NCBI GenBank assembly: GCA_017402995.1
Contig: JAFQOV010000015.1
Coordinates: forward strand, 62,001 to 126,000
Origin: Candidatus Gastranaerophilales bacterium
Lineage (GTDB): Bacteria > Cyanobacteriota > Vampirovibrionia > Gastranaerophilales > Gastranaerophilaceae
Direction of reading: 5' to 3'
DNA length: 64,000 nucleotides
Shown here one piece after another: positions 31,709 through 49,508 of this stretch. Below the pieces are notes generated by a model. That model was given only the letters and a program-made list of their open reading frames with translations, was not told the origin of the DNA and made no database searches. Position 1 is the stretch's first letter, and each line of letters begins with the position of its first letter. A program made the position numbers and the translations under genes.

Positions 31709-32839
31709 ATGAAACAGATTACTATTGAAGATATTAAAATTCCAAAGCCGGATTTTGCTGCTTCAAAAACACCAAAAGGACAGCTGATATCTTCATGGCT
31801 AATTGATTTAATTAAACATTTGTTAGAGTGTGGTTTGGCAGATGTTGGTGACTTTTTGCCGACAAAAGAAGATTTTGCAAAATATCTTGATGTTTCAACT
31901 GCAACAATGCAAATTTCAATTCGTCAGGTAAAAAACCTTGGCTACTTAAATTCAAAACAATCAATTGGTACATATATTGCAGATTTTTATTCAAATGACA
32001 TCAAACAAGACGATTGTTTATGTCATAGCTCTGTCGCTTCTTGCAAAATTAAAAAAATAATTATTGATGAAAAAATAAGACTAAATTTTCCAATTCTCTC
32101 TATTTCAGAATTAGCAAAAAGAACAAATATTTCTCAAAATACAATTCGTTTTGCGCTCGAAGATTTGGCACAAAAAGGATATTTGCAAAAGAAACATTTG
32201 AGAGGAAATAAATATTCTTGGATATATAAAAAAGAATTCTTTTTGACAAAAGATGAGTTAATCAACGGCGTGACAGATGAAGATTGTACTTTGACCCATC
32301 AACTTGTTGAAAAAATTAGAAAATATATTGAAAGAACGTATAAAATTGGCGATAAAATAATGCCAAATTTGGCTTTTTCAAATATGTTTGATGTTAGTGT
32401 CAAAACCGTAAATGACGCTATGAAAATCTTAAATTCAAGAAAAATAATTTTATCTCGTAGGGGAAAATACGGAACGATTTATTTGGGCGGCGAAAAAACT
32501 GACAAATTGAGTTTTATTAGTTCAGAAAAAAAGAAAATGAACTTGCCTCAAAATTATAGTTATTCTTGGCAAAAAGCACTTCATCATTTGAAAAAATATA
32601 TTATTGAAAACTACGAAGTTGGAGATAAAATCCCGCCAATTCGTGAACTTGCTTCTATTTTAAATGTTAGTCCAAATACGATTAGGCGTGCGCTTGAAAG
32701 TCTGTTTCAAGGTGGCTTTTTGGTTTCGCAACGTGGCAAATTGGGCGGTATCTTTTTAATTGATATGCCTCAAAGTGACGAAGAGGCTTATCGTTGGCTT
32801 GCATTGAACCCAGATGCGATTAAATTTAATGAAAATTAA
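31709..32839 (+). CDS. GntR-type regulator built of four winged-helix domains
   Basis: Four tandem GntR-like DNA-binding units fill the 376 residues: about 22-92 (LPTKEDFAKYLDVSTATMQI), 110-175 (SISELAKRTNISQNTIRFAL), 195-260 (MPNLAFSNMFDVSVKTVNDA) and 285-355 (IPPIRELASILNVSPNTIRR). Each ends in the wing pattern G.YL..K or RGK.G. No ligand-binding domain is present. The fourth unit is the closest to a classical GntR head. The protein may bind an extended operator as a monomer. It overlaps the convergent kdsA by four bases. Confidence 0.8.
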   Translation: MKQITIEDIKIPKPDFAASKTPKGQLISSWLIDLIKHLLECGLADVGDFLPTKEDFAKYLDVSTATMQISIRQVKNLGYLNSKQSIGTYIADFYSNDIKQDDCLCHSSVASCKIKKIIIDEKIRLNFPILSISELAKRTNISQNTIRFALEDLAQKGYLQKKHLRGNKYSWIYKKEFFLTKDELINGVTDEDCTLTHQLVEKIRKYIERTYKIGDKIMPNLAFSNMFDVSVKTVNDAMKILNSRKIILSRRGKYGTIYLGGEKTDKLSFISSEKKKMNLPQNYSYSWQKALHHLKKYIIENYEVGDKIPPIRELASILNVSPNTIRRALESLFQGGFLVSQRGKLGGIFLIDMPQSDEEAYRWLALNPDAIKFNEN

Positions 32840-33651
32840 TTAACCAATTTAAATATGTCGTTGCAAATTTTTAGCGTTTTTTCGCATTCGTCCAATGGAA
32901 GCATATTATCGCCATCGCAAAGTGCATTATTTGGGTCAGGGTGAATTTCAAAAAATAATACTTTAGCGCCTGCAGCAACTGCTGATTTTGCTAAAAGTGG
33001 AACAAATTTTCGCTCACCCGCTGAGCTTTCCCCGTGTCCCCCTGGGATTTGCACACTGTGTGTTGCATCAAAAACATATGGGAAACCAAGCTCTTCTTGA
33101 GTAATTTGAACACCTCTGAAATCAACTACAAGGTTATTATAGCCAAAGCTTGTGCCTCTATCTGTGATTAAGATTTTGTCGTTTCCTGAGTCAATTACTT
33201 TTTTGGCAATTGATTTCATTTGATATGGTGATAAAAATTGCCCTTTTTTGATGTTCACAATTTTTCCAGTTTTTGCAGCTGCAACCAATAAATCTGTTTG
33301 TCTGCACAAAAAAGCTGGGATTTGGATAATATCTGCAACTTTTGCTGTTGGTTCCGCTTGAGCTGGTTCGTGGATATCTGTTACGATTGGAACGTTTAAT
33401 TCTTTTTTGATTTCTGATAAAATTTTTAATCCTTCTTCCATGCCTAAACCGCGATATGAGCTTAAAGAAGAACGGTTTGCTTTATCAAAAGATGTTTTAA
33501 AAACAAAATTTATATCAAGTTTTTCGCAAATTTCTTTTAATTTTTTAGCTGTTTTTAAAGAAATTTCTTTTGATTCCATTGCACATGGACCAGCTAAAAT
33601 TGTTAATTTATCTTTTCCGATTTCAAAATTGTTAAGTGTTAAAGTTTTCAT
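32836..33651 (-). CDS. kdsA: 3-deoxy-8-phosphooctulonate (KDO-8-P) synthase
   Basis: Condenses arabinose-5-phosphate with phosphoenolpyruvate for the KDO core of lipopolysaccharide. Family motifs are LTILAGPCAMESKEISL, FKTSFDKANRSSLSSYRGLG, VPIVTDIHEPAQAEP, DIIQIPAFLCRQTDLL and NIKKGQFLSPYQM. The length of 271 is typical. It implies that the organism has an LPS-type outer membrane. It stands alone, convergent with the winged-helix regulator; no other KDO gene lies in the window. Confidence 0.95.
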   Translation of the reverse strand: MKTLTLNNFEIGKDKLTILAGPCAMESKEISLKTAKKLKEICEKLDINFVFKTSFDKANRSSLSSYRGLGMEEGLKILSEIKKELNVPIVTDIHEPAQAEPTAKVADIIQIPAFLCRQTDLLVAAAKTGKIVNIKKGQFLSPYQMKSIAKKVIDSGNDKILITDRGTSFGYNNLVVDFRGVQITQEELGFPYVFDATHSVQIPGGHGESSAGERKFVPLLAKSAVAAGAKVLFFEIHPDPNNALCDGDNMLPLDECEKTLKICNDIFKLVN

Positions 33652-33761
33652 ATTTTATCCTTATTAATTATCAAAATTATAATAAAAATCTTTATTTTGC
33701 GCAATTTTTAGTTAATTTTTTAATATTTTGTGGCATTTAAGCAAAAGAAAGAGTGGTTATT

Positions 33762-35144
33762 ATGATTGACGTAATGAAAATCTTTAAAGATATTAGTGTG
33801 CAAAATGTGGAAAATACGTCTTTAGGTGGCAAAGCACAAGGTTTTGGAAGCTCTCAAAATTCAACGATTGAAAAAGAAGACGAAAACAACCTTGTTGAAA
33901 TAAAATCTGTTGAAAAAAAAGAAGAAAAAAAGGGATTTTTCCAGCCTATTAAAGAGTTTTTTTCTAATATAGGCAAGGCAATAGGCTCTTTTATAGGAAG
34001 TATATTTTCAAAAGATAAAAGTGAAAAATCAGAAAATTCTGAAGAAGTTGAAAAACCAACAAAGATTTCTCAAAAAATCAAAGATTACCAAGAGCTTTCA
34101 AAAGAAGACCCTAAATATACGGTTAATGGCAAAATTGACCAAGATTTTCATCAAGGCTCTGTTGCTGATTGTATGTTGCTTTCAAGCATGTATTCTCTTT
34201 CAAGAACCGAAGGTGGCAGCAAAATAATTCAAGATGCAATTAAAACAAATTATGATGAAAATGGCAATACAAAATCTTATGATGTTTATTTCAAAGGTCT
34301 AGATAAAACCTACAATATTCCGGTAGAAGAATATATGGAAGCAGAAAGATTGCGACCTCAATATCAAAGAGGAGAAGTGGAATATTATCTTTCTTCTGGT
34401 GATGATGACATGCTTTTAATGGAGCTTGCATATAAAAAAGCGTTTGATGATATTTCTGAAGCTAAATCCAGCTCTAGTTTGTTTGGTGGAAAAAAACAAG
34501 CCTTGGAATCTGTTGAATATGAACAATTTTTATATGCTTTTGTTGGAACAGAAGATATAAACGAAGAATTTTGGGTAGAAAAAAAATATTCAGATAAACA
34601 AATTCAACAATATAAATCAGAGATAATGAATATTTTTGAAACACAGAAAGAATTTAAACTAGAAGATGTTTACAAAAGCGATATGAATATAGCGGCTACT
34701 AGCATTAATGGTTTTGAATTTGATTTCGAAGGAACATATGTGATTGAGCAAAAACCTTCTCAAACTGAAGATGGTAAAATAACAGTTAAAAATAAAGAAA
34801 CAGGTGAAACAGTTACCCTATCCGCAGATAGTCTTATAGGGGTCTTTGCTGGTAACCTCACAACAGAAAATGAAAGAAATGTTGCGTCAGAGATGTATGA
34901 CGCTGCTGTGAAGTCAAAATTTGTTGTTTTTGGTAATGAAACATATGAACCAGTAGAAATCACAGACATAAATGGCAAAACTTGTTCAATATGTCAAAAA
35001 CATGCGTATGGCGTGAAAGAAATAACGCAAGAGTATTTAACTTTGGTTAATCCACATAATTCGCAAGAAATTACAATGACAAAAGAAGAATATCTTAAAC
35101 ATCACGAAGCTTTCGATATTTTCTCTGCGGATTTTGAAGAATAA
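33762..35144 (+). CDS. calpain-like (C2 family) cysteine protease
   Basis: From the ATG at 33762 (GTG at 33753 is less likely) the protein has 460 residues. After a charged N-terminus and a Gly/Phe-rich helix (GFFQPIKEFFSNIGKAIGSF), the catalytic Cys appears in DFHQGSVADCMLLSSM (C137), with the oxyanion-type Gln six residues earlier, exactly as in the calpain QG..GDCWLL box. His414 in KHAYGVKEI and Asn430 in LVNPHNSQE fit the calpain HAYSV and NPWG elements. No Ca-binding C2 or EF-hand domain is seen. It lies upstream of recA with its own leader. Target proteins are unknown. Confidence 0.75.
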   Translation: MIDVMKIFKDISVQNVENTSLGGKAQGFGSSQNSTIEKEDENNLVEIKSVEKKEEKKGFFQPIKEFFSNIGKAIGSFIGSIFSKDKSEKSENSEEVEKPTKISQKIKDYQELSKEDPKYTVNGKIDQDFHQGSVADCMLLSSMYSLSRTEGGSKIIQDAIKTNYDENGNTKSYDVYFKGLDKTYNIPVEEYMEAERLRPQYQRGEVEYYLSSGDDDMLLMELAYKKAFDDISEAKSSSSLFGGKKQALESVEYEQFLYAFVGTEDINEEFWVEKKYSDKQIQQYKSEIMNIFETQKEFKLEDVYKSDMNIAATSINGFEFDFEGTYVIEQKPSQTEDGKITVKNKETGETVTLSADSLIGVFAGNLTTENERNVASEMYDAAVKSKFVVFGNETYEPVEITDINGKTCSICQKHAYGVKEITQEYLTLVNPHNSQEITMTKEEYLKHHEAFDIFSADFEE

Positions 35145-35209
35145 TTTTGCCCTTTTAAAAAATTTAGTGTAGAATTATATTAATTTCACTAGGTTTAAAG
35201 GGGATAAGT

Positions 35210-36262
35210 ATGGCTGTTGCTACTGAAGTTAATGAAAAAGAATTGCAAGCTATTCAAGAGGGCAAAAACAAAGCTCTTAAAATGGCATTAGATAAAATTG
35301 AAAAAGATTTTGGCAAAGGTTCAATTATGCGCCTTGGTGACAAAGTCAGTGTTCAATGTGAATGTATCCCAACAGGAGCTTTGGCTCTAGATTTGGCGCT
35401 TGGTATAGGCGGCGTTCCAAGAGGAAGAATCATTGAAATTTATGGTCCAGAATCTTCTGGTAAAACAACATTAGCGCAACACATTGTCGCAAACGCACAG
35501 AAAAAAGGCGGAATTGCAGCATATATTGACGCAGAACATGCACTAGATCCAGAGTATGCTAGAAATGTTGGGGTTGATGTTGACCAGCTTTTAATTTCTC
35601 AACCAGATACAGGTGAACAAGCACTTGAAATTGCCGAAGAATTAGTTCGCTCTGGTGCGATTGATATTGTTGTTATTGACTCTGTTGCAGCATTGGTTCC
35701 AAAAGCAGAAATTGAACATGCAATGGACGAGCAACAAATGGGCTTGCAAGCGCGATTGATGTCAAAAGCATTGAGAAAATTGACAGGTGTTGTTGCAAAA
35801 ACAAATACAACAATAATTTTCATCAACCAATTAAGACAAAAAATTGGCATTATGTTTGGAAACCCTGAAACAACAACTGGTGGAAACGCTTTGAAATATT
35901 ATTCATCTGTTCGTTTGGACATTCGCCGTTGCGATAGCGTTAAAAACAAAGAAAATGAAGATATCGGAAACAGAGTACGTGTTAAAGTTGTTAAAAATAA
36001 AGTTGCTCCACCGTTTAAAGTTGCTGAGTTTGATATTATTTATGGCAAGGGTATTTGCGCGCTTGGAAACGTAATTGACGTTGCAGTTAATTTTGATATT
36101 ATCAAAAAAGCAGGTGCATGGTTTAGCTATAACGACGAAAAACTTGGACAAGGTAGAGAAAAAGCAAAAGAATTTTTGGAACAAAATGCTGATATTTTAG
36201 CTGAAATTGAAGCAAAAGTCCGCGAAAAAATTGCAAACAAAAATAAACCCGAAGAAGAATAA
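35210..36262 (+). CDS. recA: recombinase RecA
   Basis: The strand-exchange and SOS coprotease filament protein. Walker A is [15 protein letters not shown], Walker B region [12 protein letters not shown], followed by [28 protein letters not shown] and [20 protein letters not shown]. The 350-residue length is standard. AAAGGGG lies seven bases before the ATG. I see no recognisable LexA box upstream. It would load onto DNA resected by the helicase-nuclease pair at 12332-16692. Confidence 0.97.
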
Positions 36263-36290
36263 TTTTTAAGGTTAAATTTAATATTCAGAT

Positions 36291-36318
36291 GAAAAGTTGT
36301 AAGGTTTTACAACTTTTC
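36291..36318 (+). terminator. probable recA terminator
   Basis: A perfect 12-base stem (GAAAAGTTGTAA and its complement) with loop GGTT begins 29 bases after the recA stop. The T-run behind it is short (GCTGTTTTT), so it could also be an operator. Confidence 0.5.
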
Positions 36319-36405
36319 GCTGTTTTTGGAGTGTTTTTCAAAACAACATGTTTTTTGCAATTTGTTGCAACTTTTTTGATTTTCAAACCTTTTATATTTA
36401 CCATC

Positions 36406-37482
36406 ATGAAAATAACGTTTAATCCATATATAAAAAATAATTATAAATATCCAATTTTTCGCTCGCAAACTCCGCAAAAGCCAACTTTGCAAGAAAAAGA
36501 TATTTTCATTTCTAGCGCTAAAACACTAGAGCAAGCAAAAAACGAGGAAAAATATCTTGCGCTTTTTGATGATGTTTATGATGAAGTTGTTGAGCAAAAT
36601 ACGGACGAATATTGCCCTGATATGCAAAAGGTGAAATTGAATAAACCAACAATGAAATTTGTTGAAAAAGCGCCTGTTGAAAACGCAGAAGGTGCCTATT
36701 CTCCTTTGGATAATTCAATTGAAATTCCAAGATATGTAATAGACGAGGACTATTATTCTTATTTTGTTAAAAGCGAAACTGATGACGATTCATTTTATGC
36801 TGATGCTTTAAGAAAAGGAAGATTTGACGAAAAAATAAAATATTACCAAGAAAATCACCCAAATGGACAAATAATTGAATTTACAGACAAAGAAAAAGAG
36901 CTCTATCTTTCTGGGCTAATGGCGCATGAAATAAGGCATTTTTTGCAAAAACATTTGATTGCTTCAACAAAAGGAATAGGAAAAAAGGCAAAGAAAATTT
37001 GGGTTAAAAAAAGTGATAAAATTATCACAAATTTAAAAAATCTTGAACTGATGAAGGCTTGGCGCGCACAGTTAAAAGGGGAAGAATATGAAATTCAAAG
37101 ATATGGTGAACCGTATTTTAAAACGTATGAACCAGATGAACCATTAAAAAAAGACGCAAAAATAAGATTTTCTTTATACGCAGATGATGAAAGATATATC
37201 AGCGCAAAAGAATTTTTAAAATCTGAAATTTATACACAAAAAAATAAACAAAAAATGCAAGAAAATGGCGTAAATTACGCATATTTTGCAAATCTTCAAG
37301 AAATAGATGCGTACAATTACGGATTTGAATATTTGTTATCTAAAATGTTGACCGAAGCAAAAAATGTCCGAATTGATATGCTCCCAACGGCTTCATATTG
37401 GCAAAAACAACAATCAGACATGGGGTTAGAATATTTGCAAAAGAGGGGATATGACCCTTTTGTTAGAGAAAAAAATCGTTAA
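36406..37482 (+). CDS. predicted zinc metallopeptidase (HEIRH)
   Basis: The upstream frame opening at 36289 runs through the recA terminator, so I place the start at 36406, giving MKITFNPYIKNNYKYPIFRS, a leader of the lineage type. LSGLMAHEIRHFLQKHLIA carries an HExxH zinc motif, and QEIDAYNYGFEYLL about 110 residues later could give the third ligand (Glu), as in gluzincins. No signal peptide is seen. The 358-residue protein is otherwise unknown. It sits between recA and rmlA without clear coupling to either. Confidence 0.65.
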   Translation: MKITFNPYIKNNYKYPIFRSQTPQKPTLQEKDIFISSAKTLEQAKNEEKYLALFDDVYDEVVEQNTDEYCPDMQKVKLNKPTMKFVEKAPVENAEGAYSPLDNSIEIPRYVIDEDYYSYFVKSETDDDSFYADALRKGRFDEKIKYYQENHPNGQIIEFTDKEKELYLSGLMAHEIRHFLQKHLIASTKGIGKKAKKIWVKKSDKIITNLKNLELMKAWRAQLKGEEYEIQRYGEPYFKTYEPDEPLKKDAKIRFSLYADDERYISAKEFLKSEIYTQKNKQKMQENGVNYAYFANLQEIDAYNYGFEYLLSKMLTEAKNVRIDMLPTASYWQKQQSDMGLEYLQKRGYDPFVREKNR

Positions 37483-46435: not shown

Positions 46436-48250
46436 TTATGCTTCTTCGGTTTCTTCTTTTTCAGCTTCTTCTAGTTCTTCTGCGCCTTCGCGAGCTCTTT
46501 CAAGTTTTGTTAATAATACGTCTTCTTCATCACCAGAGAAGTCGCCTTTAATTGCTTCTTCTAATGATTCGCCATATTTTTCTTCGTATGCGTCAGCTAC
46601 TGCAACCATATCTTTATCATTTAAGGCGCCAATAACTGTTGCAACTTTTTCTTCATTGGTTCCCCAGCCGCCAATTGCGTCATGTATTTTATCCGCATAT
46701 AATTCGGCTTCTTTTTCGTTTAATTCTGGTTGTCCTTCGTTTGCTGCTTGCTCTTGAGCACCTTTGATTAAACCTACGTATGTATTTTCATCAGCGCCAG
46801 AGAAGTCACCTTTGATTGCTTCTTCTAATGATTCACCGTATTCTTGTTCATAGATTTGTGCAACTTTAACCAAGTCGGCACCTTCTAATCTGCCCATTAC
46901 TTTTTCAACGGCTTCTTCGTCAGTTCCCCAGCCATCTATTGCGTCATGTAATTTTTCAGCATATAGTTTAGCTGTTCTATCAGAAATTGGTCCTTCGTTT
47001 TCTTCTTTGATTGCACCTTCTGGGATTTCAGCCTTTTGCGCGTCAGATAGCTTATCAAGTAATACGTCTTCTTCATCACCAGAGAAGTCACCTTTAATTG
47101 CTTCTTCTAATGATTCACCGTATTCTTCTTCATATACCATAGATACAACTTGTAAATCTTCAGGTCTTAATGAATTGATTAATTCAGAAACTTTTTCTTC
47201 GTCTGTGCCCCAACCATCAATTGCTTCATGAATTTGATCAGCATATAGCGCAGCATCTTCTTTTGTGATTAATGGTTGACCTTCGCTCTTCGCTTGTTCT
47301 TGAGCACCTTTTAATTGACCTAAATATGTATTTTCATCAGCGCCAGAGAAGTCGTCTTTAATTGCTTCTTCTAATGATTCGCCAAATTCTTTTTCATAGA
47401 TTTGTGCAACTTTTAACAAGTTTGCGCCATCAAGGTCTTGCATTACTTCTTTGAACGCTTGTTCGTCAGTTCCCCAGCCGTCAACTGCGTCATGTAGTTT
47501 TTCAGCATATAATTTAGCTTCTCTATCAGAGATTACTTCTTGTTTTTCAGGTATAAATTCTTTTTCTTCTGTGGTTTCTTCTTCTTTTACTTCATCTTTG
47601 CTTGTAGTTTCTTCTGTTGGAGTTTCAGTTGGAGTTTTTTCTGTTGTTGGAGTGTCTGTTGCAGGGGTATCAGTTGCAGGGGTATCAGTTGCAGGGGTGT
47701 CTGTTGCAGGGGTGTCTGTTGCAGGGGTGTCTGTTGTTGGTTTAGAGCCATCTTGTGGTGTTGCCTCAGGAACAGGTTGTTTATTGTCTGTTTTTTCTGT
47801 GCTTGAGAAAATTTCTTTTCCGTTATAGTCAAATTTTCTATGGCTTTGCAAAGTTCCATCTTCGTTAAAGACAATGTGCTCTTTAACGTTGCCATTACCC
47901 CAATATTTTGTATATTCGTTATCTGGTTTATCTGCGTTTTTAGACGTTTCTTCCATGTCAGCTGTTTGTTGAGCTTCTGTTTCAGATTCAACATTTCCTA
48001 CAAATTCAAAATATTCTTCATCTGACATTTCAAACTCATTTAAAAAGTCACTGATTAATTGAGCATTTGCTTTTTTTGCTTCATCTGTTTCAGCTTTTTC
48101 AGGAGAAAAATACTCTTTGATCTCGTCAGCTGTCAATTCGCCGTCGTCTAACAAGCCTTCTTGTTCGACAACATCTTTAATTTTGCTGTAATAATCTTTT
48201 TTTTCTAACCAGTTTTGGTTAACGCCATTTAATGAAAAGTTTTCGCCCAT
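46436..48250 (-). CDS. annexin-like protein with four repeats
   Basis: From the ATG at 48250 (seven bases after AAGGTG) the protein has 604 residues. It begins with the shared NGVNQNWLEKK element and an EF-hand-like LLDDGELTADEI, then a MORN-variant stretch (YWGNGNVKEHIVFNEDGTL), a TDTPA repeat linker, and four annexin-type repeats at about 240-320, 328-405, 422-501 and 510-589. Each has AxxLHxAIDGWGTDE and, 38 residues after the Thr, an Asp in KGDFSG, exactly the annexin type II calcium site spacing. Repeats 1/3 and 2/4 are most alike, so a pair was duplicated. No signal peptide is seen. Calcium-dependent membrane binding is inferred. Confidence 0.75.
   Translation of the reverse strand: MGENFSLNGVNQNWLEKKDYYSKIKDVVEQEGLLDDGELTADEIKEYFSPEKAETDEAKKANAQLISDFLNEFEMSDEEYFEFVGNVESETEAQQTADMEETSKNADKPDNEYTKYWGNGNVKEHIVFNEDGTLQSHRKFDYNGKEIFSSTEKTDNKQPVPEATPQDGSKPTTDTPATDTPATDTPATDTPATDTPATDTPTTEKTPTETPTEETTSKDEVKEEETTEEKEFIPEKQEVISDREAKLYAEKLHDAVDGWGTDEQAFKEVMQDLDGANLLKVAQIYEKEFGESLEEAIKDDFSGADENTYLGQLKGAQEQAKSEGQPLITKEDAALYADQIHEAIDGWGTDEEKVSELINSLRPEDLQVVSMVYEEEYGESLEEAIKGDFSGDEEDVLLDKLSDAQKAEIPEGAIKEENEGPISDRTAKLYAEKLHDAIDGWGTDEEAVEKVMGRLEGADLVKVAQIYEQEYGESLEEAIKGDFSGADENTYVGLIKGAQEQAANEGQPELNEKEAELYADKIHDAIGGWGTNEEKVATVIGALNDKDMVAVADAYEEKYGESLEEAIKGDFSGDEEDVLLTKLERAREGAEELEEAEKEETEEA
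47643..47747 (-). repeat. 15-base tandem repeat coding for TDTPA units
   Basis: Five near-identical copies of GTTGCAGGGGTRTCW (47658-47732) plus a diverged copy on each side encode the Thr/Pro linker of the annexin-like protein. The 15-base period keeps the frame, so copy number can change without breaking the gene. Confidence 0.9.
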
Positions 48251-48287
48251 TTTGCACACCTTTATTTCTTTTTAATTACTTTCTTTA

Positions 48288-49508
48288 TTATTCTGTATAT
48301 GCCATTGCTTCATCAATTTTGTCTAATAAGACATCTTGATCGTTGCCAGAGAAATCGCCATCAATTGCATCACGCAATGATTCGCCATAATTTTGTTCAT
48401 ATATTGCTGCAATGATTTTTAAATCACGATGGTTATATCCATTAATTACTGATGAAACTGCACTTTCGTCAGTTCCCCAGCCATCAACTGCGTTATAGAT
48501 TTGTTCAGCTGCAGAGTATGCTTCTTGTTCGCTGATTACTTGAGAAGTATCTTTTTGAGATAATGCCATTGCAGCTTCAATTTTTGCGACATATGTTTTT
48601 TCTGTGCCGAATGAGAAGTCGCCTTTAATTGCGTCAACCAAGCTTTCGCCATAGTTTGCTTCATATACTGCTGCAACTTTTGCTAAATCTGCGCCGTCTA
48701 ACTCGCTTAATACTTCTTTGACTTCGCCGTCGTCAGTTCCCCAGCCGTCCATTGCGTCATGCAGACGTTCAGCATATCTTTCAGCATTATTATCATCAAT
48801 AACTGCTTCATCACCTGATGAATTTGGTTTTGATTGTGGCGAAGGTGGCGTTGTTTTAATAACATTACCATTCGCATCTGTTTCTTCGCCATATTGGTTA
48901 TAGTATCTGATATTATATTCGCCAGAGCCATCATCTTTTGGAGTTTTATAGATATAGCTTCCGTCTTCATTATATTCATATGTATATTTTTCTTTTCCAT
49001 TGTCATACCAAGTTTTTCCTGTGATATTACCTTTGGAATCGTATGTTAATGTTTCTTGAGGATCACCTGTTCCATAAGCAAAAGTTTCTTTTGAAGCAAC
49101 AGAACCGTCTTCATTATAGGTTATTGTTTCTTTTGGTTTTCCATCAGACCAATATGATGTGCTTGTTGTTGTAGTTGGTTCTTCTGCTGTTTCTTCTGTA
49201 TTTTCTGTATCATCAGCAATTTGTGCTTCATCTACTACTTCAACGTTTTCCATTTCGCTTTCATAGTTTGCAGTTTCTTCTTCAATTGCGCTTGTAAATT
49301 GGTTATATTCTTCTTCGCTCATTCCAAGCTCACTAAGAAAATCGCTGATGAGTTGTTTTTTCTCATCACCTTCAAGACCGCACGATTCAAGCTCGTTCAA
49401 GGTTAAAATGCCGTCATCAACCGCGCCAGAGTCTTTGACCTTGTCGCCGTAGGTTTTTTGTTCTAACCAAGCTTTGCTTACGCCTATTGAAGAGTAATCT
49501 TTGCTCAT
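48288..49508 (-). CDS. annexin-like protein with two repeats
   Basis: A 406-residue paralogue of the preceding gene. It has SSIGVSKAWLEQK, the EF-hand-like VDDGILTLNEL, and GMSEEEYNQFTSAIE. MORN-variant repeats follow at about 117-220 (YWSDGKPKETITYNEDGS, QETLTYDSKGNITGKTWYD, YTYEYNEDGSYIYK). Two annexin-type repeats lie at 237-316 and 325-404, each with LHDAMDGWGTDD or YNAVDGWGTDES and a DGDFSG/KGDFS calcium-site acid. AAAGGTGTG precedes the ATG as in the four-repeat gene. No signal peptide is visible, and the protein is very acidic. Confidence 0.75.
   Translation of the reverse strand: MSKDYSSIGVSKAWLEQKTYGDKVKDSGAVDDGILTLNELESCGLEGDEKKQLISDFLSELGMSEEEYNQFTSAIEEETANYESEMENVEVVDEAQIADDTENTEETAEEPTTTTSTSYWSDGKPKETITYNEDGSVASKETFAYGTGDPQETLTYDSKGNITGKTWYDNGKEKYTYEYNEDGSYIYKTPKDDGSGEYNIRYYNQYGEETDANGNVIKTTPPSPQSKPNSSGDEAVIDDNNAERYAERLHDAMDGWGTDDGEVKEVLSELDGADLAKVAAVYEANYGESLVDAIKGDFSFGTEKTYVAKIEAAMALSQKDTSQVISEQEAYSAAEQIYNAVDGWGTDESAVSSVINGYNHRDLKIIAAIYEQNYGESLRDAIDGDFSGNDQDVLLDKIDEAMAYTE

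Follow-up and report, generated by a model that had tools for sequence, protein, structure and literature searches.

A predicted calpain-family cysteine peptidase encoded between kdsA and recA in a Gastranaerophilales bacterium

Does an uncultured gut bacterium related to the cyanobacteria (Gastranaerophilales) encode a working calpain and, if so, where would the enzyme act? The question is raised by a 460-codon open reading frame, closed by a stop codon, at 33762-35144 on the plus strand of the 64,000-nucleotide stretch of DNA analysed here (the window), which an initial annotation had assigned to a calpain-like cysteine protease. In surveys of bacterial calpains, only a minority of species had any, and copies were few (Rawlings 2015, PMC4631099; Veselenyiova 2022, PMC9380684). 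The surveys describe these proteins as rare and of unknown function, and hold that eukaryotic calpains came from a bacterial donor whose identity is unknown. The features of the locus are collected in Table 1. ATG 33762 is a likelier start than GTG 33753, because the latter overlaps the ribosome-site-like stretch AGAAAGAG; promoter and terminator scans around the gene gave hits at chance level only.

Table 1. Coordinates of the peptidase gene, its predicted functional elements and its neighbours, as positions in the window.
Feature	Position	Strand	Remarks
kdsA	32836-33651	-	flanks the calpain gene, divergent
Extra segment between kdsA and recA	33652..35209	+	contains the calpain gene; calpain-free junction in congeners
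Ribosome-site-like AGAAAGAG	33746..33753	+	8 nt 5' of the ATG; putative, from reading of the sequence
Calpain-family (C2) peptidase CDS	33762..35144	+	460 aa; assigned from ORF, PF00648 and calpain fold
Gly/Phe-rich amphipathic stretch, residues 58-86	33933..34019	+	in disordered, charged leader; AlphaFold2 helix 64-81, low confidence
V121, G123, D128	34122..34145	+	putative equivalents of calpain-2 Ile89, Gly91, Asp96; same spacing to catalytic Cys
Gln131	34152..34154	+	predicted oxyanion-hole residue; invariant in A1 and A3
Cys137	34170..34172	+	predicted nucleophile; invariant in A1 and A3
GDDD, residues 213-216	34398..34409	+	invariant in A3; Asp214 a putative equivalent of the calpain Glu175 of calcium site 1
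Clade-specific insert, residues ~271-364	34572..34853	+	between Cys and His halves; helix and beta-rich part; from A3 alignment
His414	35001..35003	+	predicted general base; invariant in A1 and A3
Asn430	35049..35051	+	predicted third triad residue; invariant in A1, nearly so in A3
recA	35210-36262	+	flanks the calpain gene

Family membership and predicted fold

The search against Peptidase_C2 (PF00648) that the initial annotation had suggested gave 28.9 bits (hmmscan, E 7.5e-7; best stretch, residues 86-194), above the curated Pfam cut-off of 23.8 bits and, by its score, far in excess of chance. Nothing in NCBIfam matched the protein. Searched singly against PDB sequences, it retrieved only calpain-5, and that weakly (E 0.2); a profile built from the protein and 15 relatives (16 sequences, alignment A3) retrieved calpain-9 first (9.3e-7), then calpain-3, -1, -5 and -8.

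An AlphaFold2 model computed with the 16-row A3 alignment has a mean pLDDT of 64 and a pTM of 0.56. pLDDT is mostly 80-93 in the catalytic stretches and falls under 50 at residues 1-116 and in parts of the insert. The model contains a two-lobed calpain protease core at residues 112-460. VIA-align, used as a second look restricted to the candidates of Foldseek, placed calpain structures at all of ranks 1 to 18 (Z 14.6 to 8.7), with superpositions of 189-219 residues covering model residues 112-460 at an rmsd of 3.1-4.0; the best fold other than calpain was papain-like, at Z 6.7. It is this gap in Z between the calpains and all other folds that makes the predicted calpain fold convincing. Foldseek itself returned no PDB match at E<=0.001, and the rows that it nominally ranked highest (relaxase, NlpC/P60, KOW and Tudor barrels), none of which reached that threshold, were disbelieved. 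What supports the calpain match is VIA-align together with the profiles and the alignment, not Foldseek. By every feature tested, in sequence and in predicted structure, the protein is a member of the C2 family (MEROPS, clan CA), and the family model, the profile search and the fold together back the description as a calpain-like cysteine protease.

The protein shares with the cores of human calpain-1, -3 and -9 the predicted fold and the order and spacing of Gln, Cys, His and Asn. Identity to these cores is 14-18%, however, and the N-terminal part of the core is shorter. Unlike the human cores, the bacterial protein also has an insert of about 95 residues, Met and His in place of two tryptophans, and neither domain III nor an EF-hand domain.

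Catalytic residues, calcium and the N-terminal leader

The three motif strings on which the initial annotation was built, DFHQGSVADCMLLSS, KHAYGVKE and LVNPHNSQE, are all found in the translated reading frame, and both its numbering (Cys137, His414, Asn430) and its spacing of six from Gln131 to Cys137 are correct. As judged by alignment, a Cys-His-Asn triad in calpain order is present, as is the oxyanion Gln six residues ahead of the Cys. In an alignment of 20 sequences (A1), comprising the protein and 19 diverged relatives with 21-30% identity to it, invariance is limited to Q131, C137, a Gly and one Ala of the GDDD helix, H414, N430 and P431. The pattern in A3 is the same, except that one relative (L037) has Asp for Asn430. 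Mean column identity among the relatives is only about 24%, and the catalytic residues are nonetheless invariant. Because these residues are kept while the remainder diverges, catalysis has probably been retained, and we infer that peptidase activity is under selection in this protein and its relatives.

Three positions are unusual for a calpain: Met instead of Trp after Cys137, Ala instead of Gly before the AspCys pair, and NPH for NPW. Inactive calpain homologues exist in eukaryotes (PMC4631099), and the loss of both tryptophans, next to Cys137 and Asn430, would suit a catalytically dead homologue serving as a binding domain; the retention of Gln, Cys, His and Asn, here and in diverged relatives, makes such a role improbable. 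We consider it likely that the accessory gene at 33762-35144 encodes a catalytically competent calpain-family cysteine endopeptidase performing limited proteolysis. Cys137 would attack the peptide bond, with Gln131 providing the oxyanion hole and His414, held by Asn430, acting as the base. The enzyme would cut a narrow range of protein targets, and the insert at residues ~271-364 may help to select them.

The insert, which measures about 95 residues in this protein, marks a subclade. A tree groups the protein with four relatives (L006, L024, L035 and L071) at moderate support (SH-aLRT 89). The distance from Cys to His is 249-319 residues in this subclade, owing to the insert, versus 150-206 in all others except L017, which has a long distance too, yet is placed outside. 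All five members have NPH for NPW, and all have lost the Trp after the catalytic Cys, where they carry Met, Met, Gln, Ala and Ala (the protein itself, L006, L024, L035 and L071, respectively). L035, from a Gastranaerophilales MAG of rabbit gut, is the closest in identity (35% over the tree columns) and shares the insert and the loss of both tryptophans. Unlike the calpain studied here, it starts only some 45 residues ahead of its peptidase domain and lacks the amphipathic leader. Folded alone, the insert reached pLDDT 54, and an SH3-like fold, as hinted at by the weak KOW, Tudor and SH3 rows, was dropped.

The initial annotation held that an N-terminal helix stands in the protein instead of calcium-binding domains. 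This is right as regards EF-hands and domain III (Calpain_III), neither of which gave a Pfam match at E<=10; a classical calcium-activated calpain has both. It may not hold for the peptidase domain, in which the residues of calcium site 1 appear to be kept. With Cys105, which we take to be the catalytic cysteine of calpain-2, as reference, the first three residues of the putative site have the expected spacing to Cys137. Calcium site 1 of calpain-2 is formed by Ile89, Gly91, Asp96 and Glu175 (Rawlings, PMC4631099). In a profile alignment with other bacterial calpains, Asp214 of the GDDD stretch occupies the Glu position of the NE(L/F)W motif, a change from Glu to Asp. Asp128 is lost in most relatives; GDDD is invariant in A3. 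The peptidase domain may carry a calcium site 1, and since the residues of that site appear to be kept, calcium independence does not follow from the missing domains. The Trp of NPW blocks the active site of mammalian calpain in the calcium-free state. An enzyme with no tryptophan beside Cys137 and Asn430 may be active free of calcium, and the apparently kept site 1 would still allow tuning by calcium.

The Gly/Phe-rich N-terminal helix of the initial annotation is plausible, as AlphaFold2 draws a helix at residues 64-81, but at a pLDDT of about 40 it is not established. The amphipathic stretch has a hydrophobic moment of 0.61 over 18 residues. The disordered, charged leader of about 110 residues might use such a helix to dock the calpain on a membrane or a partner. 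Sequence search of the bacterium's own genome found no second copy of the helix. Some ten relatives have amphipathic stretches, of different sequence and at either end of the protein; because they differ in both respects, a common export signal is a mere idea.

N- and C-terminal additions differ widely among the relatives: one calpain is fused to two FHA domains (L020, 718-2217), another has RTX repeats C-terminal to the peptidase (L021, 1-2016), and stretches under the Pfam cut-offs resemble EF-hands in two (L016 and L030, weakly) and MORN_2 in one (L002). A pair of tandem calpains (L036, 4320-8142; also G010:C35) is 98-100% identical over its first 600 nt or so and mostly 40-60% identical thereafter, with about 50% over the calpain domain, although the pair comes from one MAG contig, where an assembly effect is possible. 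This pattern suggests that exchange or conversion can affect a leader independently of the enzyme part.

An accessory gene within a large calpain repertoire

Of 25 congeners, 20 have an adjacent, divergent kdsA-recA pair with a gap of about 50-160 bp and no calpain in it; the remaining five have other genes upstream of recA, with no calpain match there. The gene studied here lies between kdsA and recA with an upstream region of its own, and it is an accessory gene. A single-gene gain at this junction in this species is the probable history, preferred over the alternative, loss in the others, because it is simpler. No mobile-element gene was seen beside the calpain, and phage and plasmid records gave no match to it. 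The 397-aa reading frame 36289-37482 (plus strand), which is unrelated to the calpain and has no clear family match, separates recA from rfbA; these are adjacent in most congeners, and the frame represents a second accessory insertion there.

The genome encodes three calpains, the other two on contigs C15 and C3 (about 146-149 bits with the family profile). When the protein was searched singly, 19 of 58 relatives (counting its own genome) gave matches, with 25-49% identity across the aligned stretches. No close orthologue turned up, the best reaching about 31-38% identity. For this reason a single-protein scan of GTDB contigs returned no relative, and an alignment-based search was needed. The A3 profile matched 224 of 286 Gastranaerophilales genomes at E<=1e-3, about 154 of them at E<1e-20 (counted from the profile table); some of the weaker matches, in roughly 70 genomes (E 1e-3 to 1e-20), may be to other peptidases of clan CA. 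Across the order, the profile gave up to at least seven calpains per genome, some of them in tandem or twice in one frame (e.g. G227:C9). Under the more stringent Pfam model, the class had 55 genomes out of 146 above the cut-off, and one genome had nine matches. Among the closest loci, the named records are mostly MAGs of Gastranaerophilales or Melainabacteria. One more classical calpain, with NELW and NPWG motifs, lies on a 136-kb viral contig from IMG/VR (L050, 4602-5834); a PHROG search with it found no match. To judge from these genome sequences, Gastranaerophilales and related orders carry a large, fast-diverging calpain repertoire. The rarity of bacterial calpains asserted in the initial annotation is true of bacteria overall (PMC4631099), but not of Gastranaerophilales, given three copies in this genome and matches in 224 of 286.

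The calpains in the bacterial and cyanobacterial surveys (PMC4631099, PMC9380684) resemble the present one in standing alone or having a variable N-terminal region, a C-terminal peptidase domain and an intact triad. The present one differs in having no PPC domain and in its amphipathic-helix leader and peptidase-domain insert. Tpr of Porphyromonas gingivalis, also of family C2, is likewise a bacterial calpain of patchy occurrence, in its case between strains (PMC4631099). Melainabacteria are mentioned in neither survey. Among open-licence PMC papers, we found none joining calpain with Melainabacteria or Gastranaerophilales, and the two combining calpain with Vampirovibrio were unrelated; the expansion in Gastranaerophilales may be unreported so far. 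In the 2015 survey no bacterial calpain had an EF-hand (PMC4631099), and the Gastranaerophilales calpains include designs absent from that survey, among them an FHA-calpain and an EF-hand-like calpain. Taken alone, the gene at 33762-35144 is of modest interest. An order with small genomes in which most species have calpains, some at least seven, with many different leaders, is a place to test what bacterial calpains do, and trees of calpain origin need new branches from it.

Where the peptidase may act

Two readings of the site of action, both of them sub-cases of a competent endopeptidase, have about equal odds, and we hold each tentatively. In one, the calpain is an effector, exported or displayed, that cleaves target proteins in nearby microbes or in the gut host, and the leaders are reshuffled delivery or targeting modules. 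The patchy, accessory distribution and strong divergence agree with this, and the tandem pair with a shared leader and diverged calpain domains resembles reshuffled effector families. Relatives with RTX repeats and with MORN_2-like and EF-hand-like segments point the same way, but only a single relative, which belongs to a different family of the order, has the RTX repeats. Nor is a signal peptide apparent in the protein; Pfam finds no known trafficking domain in it, and an exchangeable leader is seen only in the tandem pair. The genome encodes TolC-like outer-membrane proteins; neither a T6SS sheath gene nor a type I HlyD over the cut-off was found there. With kdsA and recA as its neighbours, the gene has no immunity-like gene adjoining it.

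That no secretion signal was seen is as expected for the other reading, in which the calpain is a cytoplasmic regulatory peptidase, possibly anchored to the inner membrane through its helix, and processes proteins of its own cell in response to, for instance, calcium or stress. The leader helix and the possible calcium site 1 residues are consistent with such a role, as is the FHA-calpain relative, which suggests phospho-signalling inside cells. Cyanobacterial calpains, which have no predicted transmembrane regions, have been taken as cytosolic (PMC9380684). A conserved regulator, however, should be inherited vertically, as an orthologue at a fixed position, and recA has no adjoining calpain in any of the 25 congeners, nor was a close orthologue found.

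It is doubtful that the calpains, annexins and EF-hand-like or MORN-like modules of Gastranaerophilales and sister orders make up a shuffled, calcium-linked repertoire of exported effectors, into which the 33762-35144 calpain was recently inserted with its helix as an address tag. If they did, the lineage would be a candidate source or reservoir of eukaryote-type calcium-protease modules. A part in anti-phage defence, or a phage-borne origin, is highly improbable despite the accessory position at a housekeeping junction and the one calpain on a viral contig, as the protein matches neither PADLOC (E<=0.01) nor PHROG nor any phage or plasmid record, and no defence genes adjoin it.

The window also contains two tandem annexin genes on the minus strand, 46439-48259 (Pfam Annexin, E 5e-64, four repeats) and 48291-49508 (E 2.5e-27, two repeats). 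Inspection by eye shows, in each product, an N-terminal stretch that resembles an EF-hand, together with YxxDG repeats of MORN_2-like type. Bacterial annexins are already known (PMC3894181); the Gastranaerophilales lineage is not mentioned in that paper. Contig C1 of the same genome encodes a further protein (L116, 1498-2973) with the annexin-type N-terminal module (GVNQxWL, LLDDxxLTLEEL) followed by YWSDG repeats, whose C-terminus differs from the annexins in being Asp/Gly-rich and calcium-site-like. Finally, many hypothetical proteins have an MKI..I....NF.G-like motif within their first 60 residues or so, among them those of the window reading frames 23805, 26047, 30180 and 38405 (minus strand) and 53847 (plus strand) and of reading frames at the loci L032, L044, L047, L048 and L049; the motif is possibly a lineage-specific N-terminal signal.
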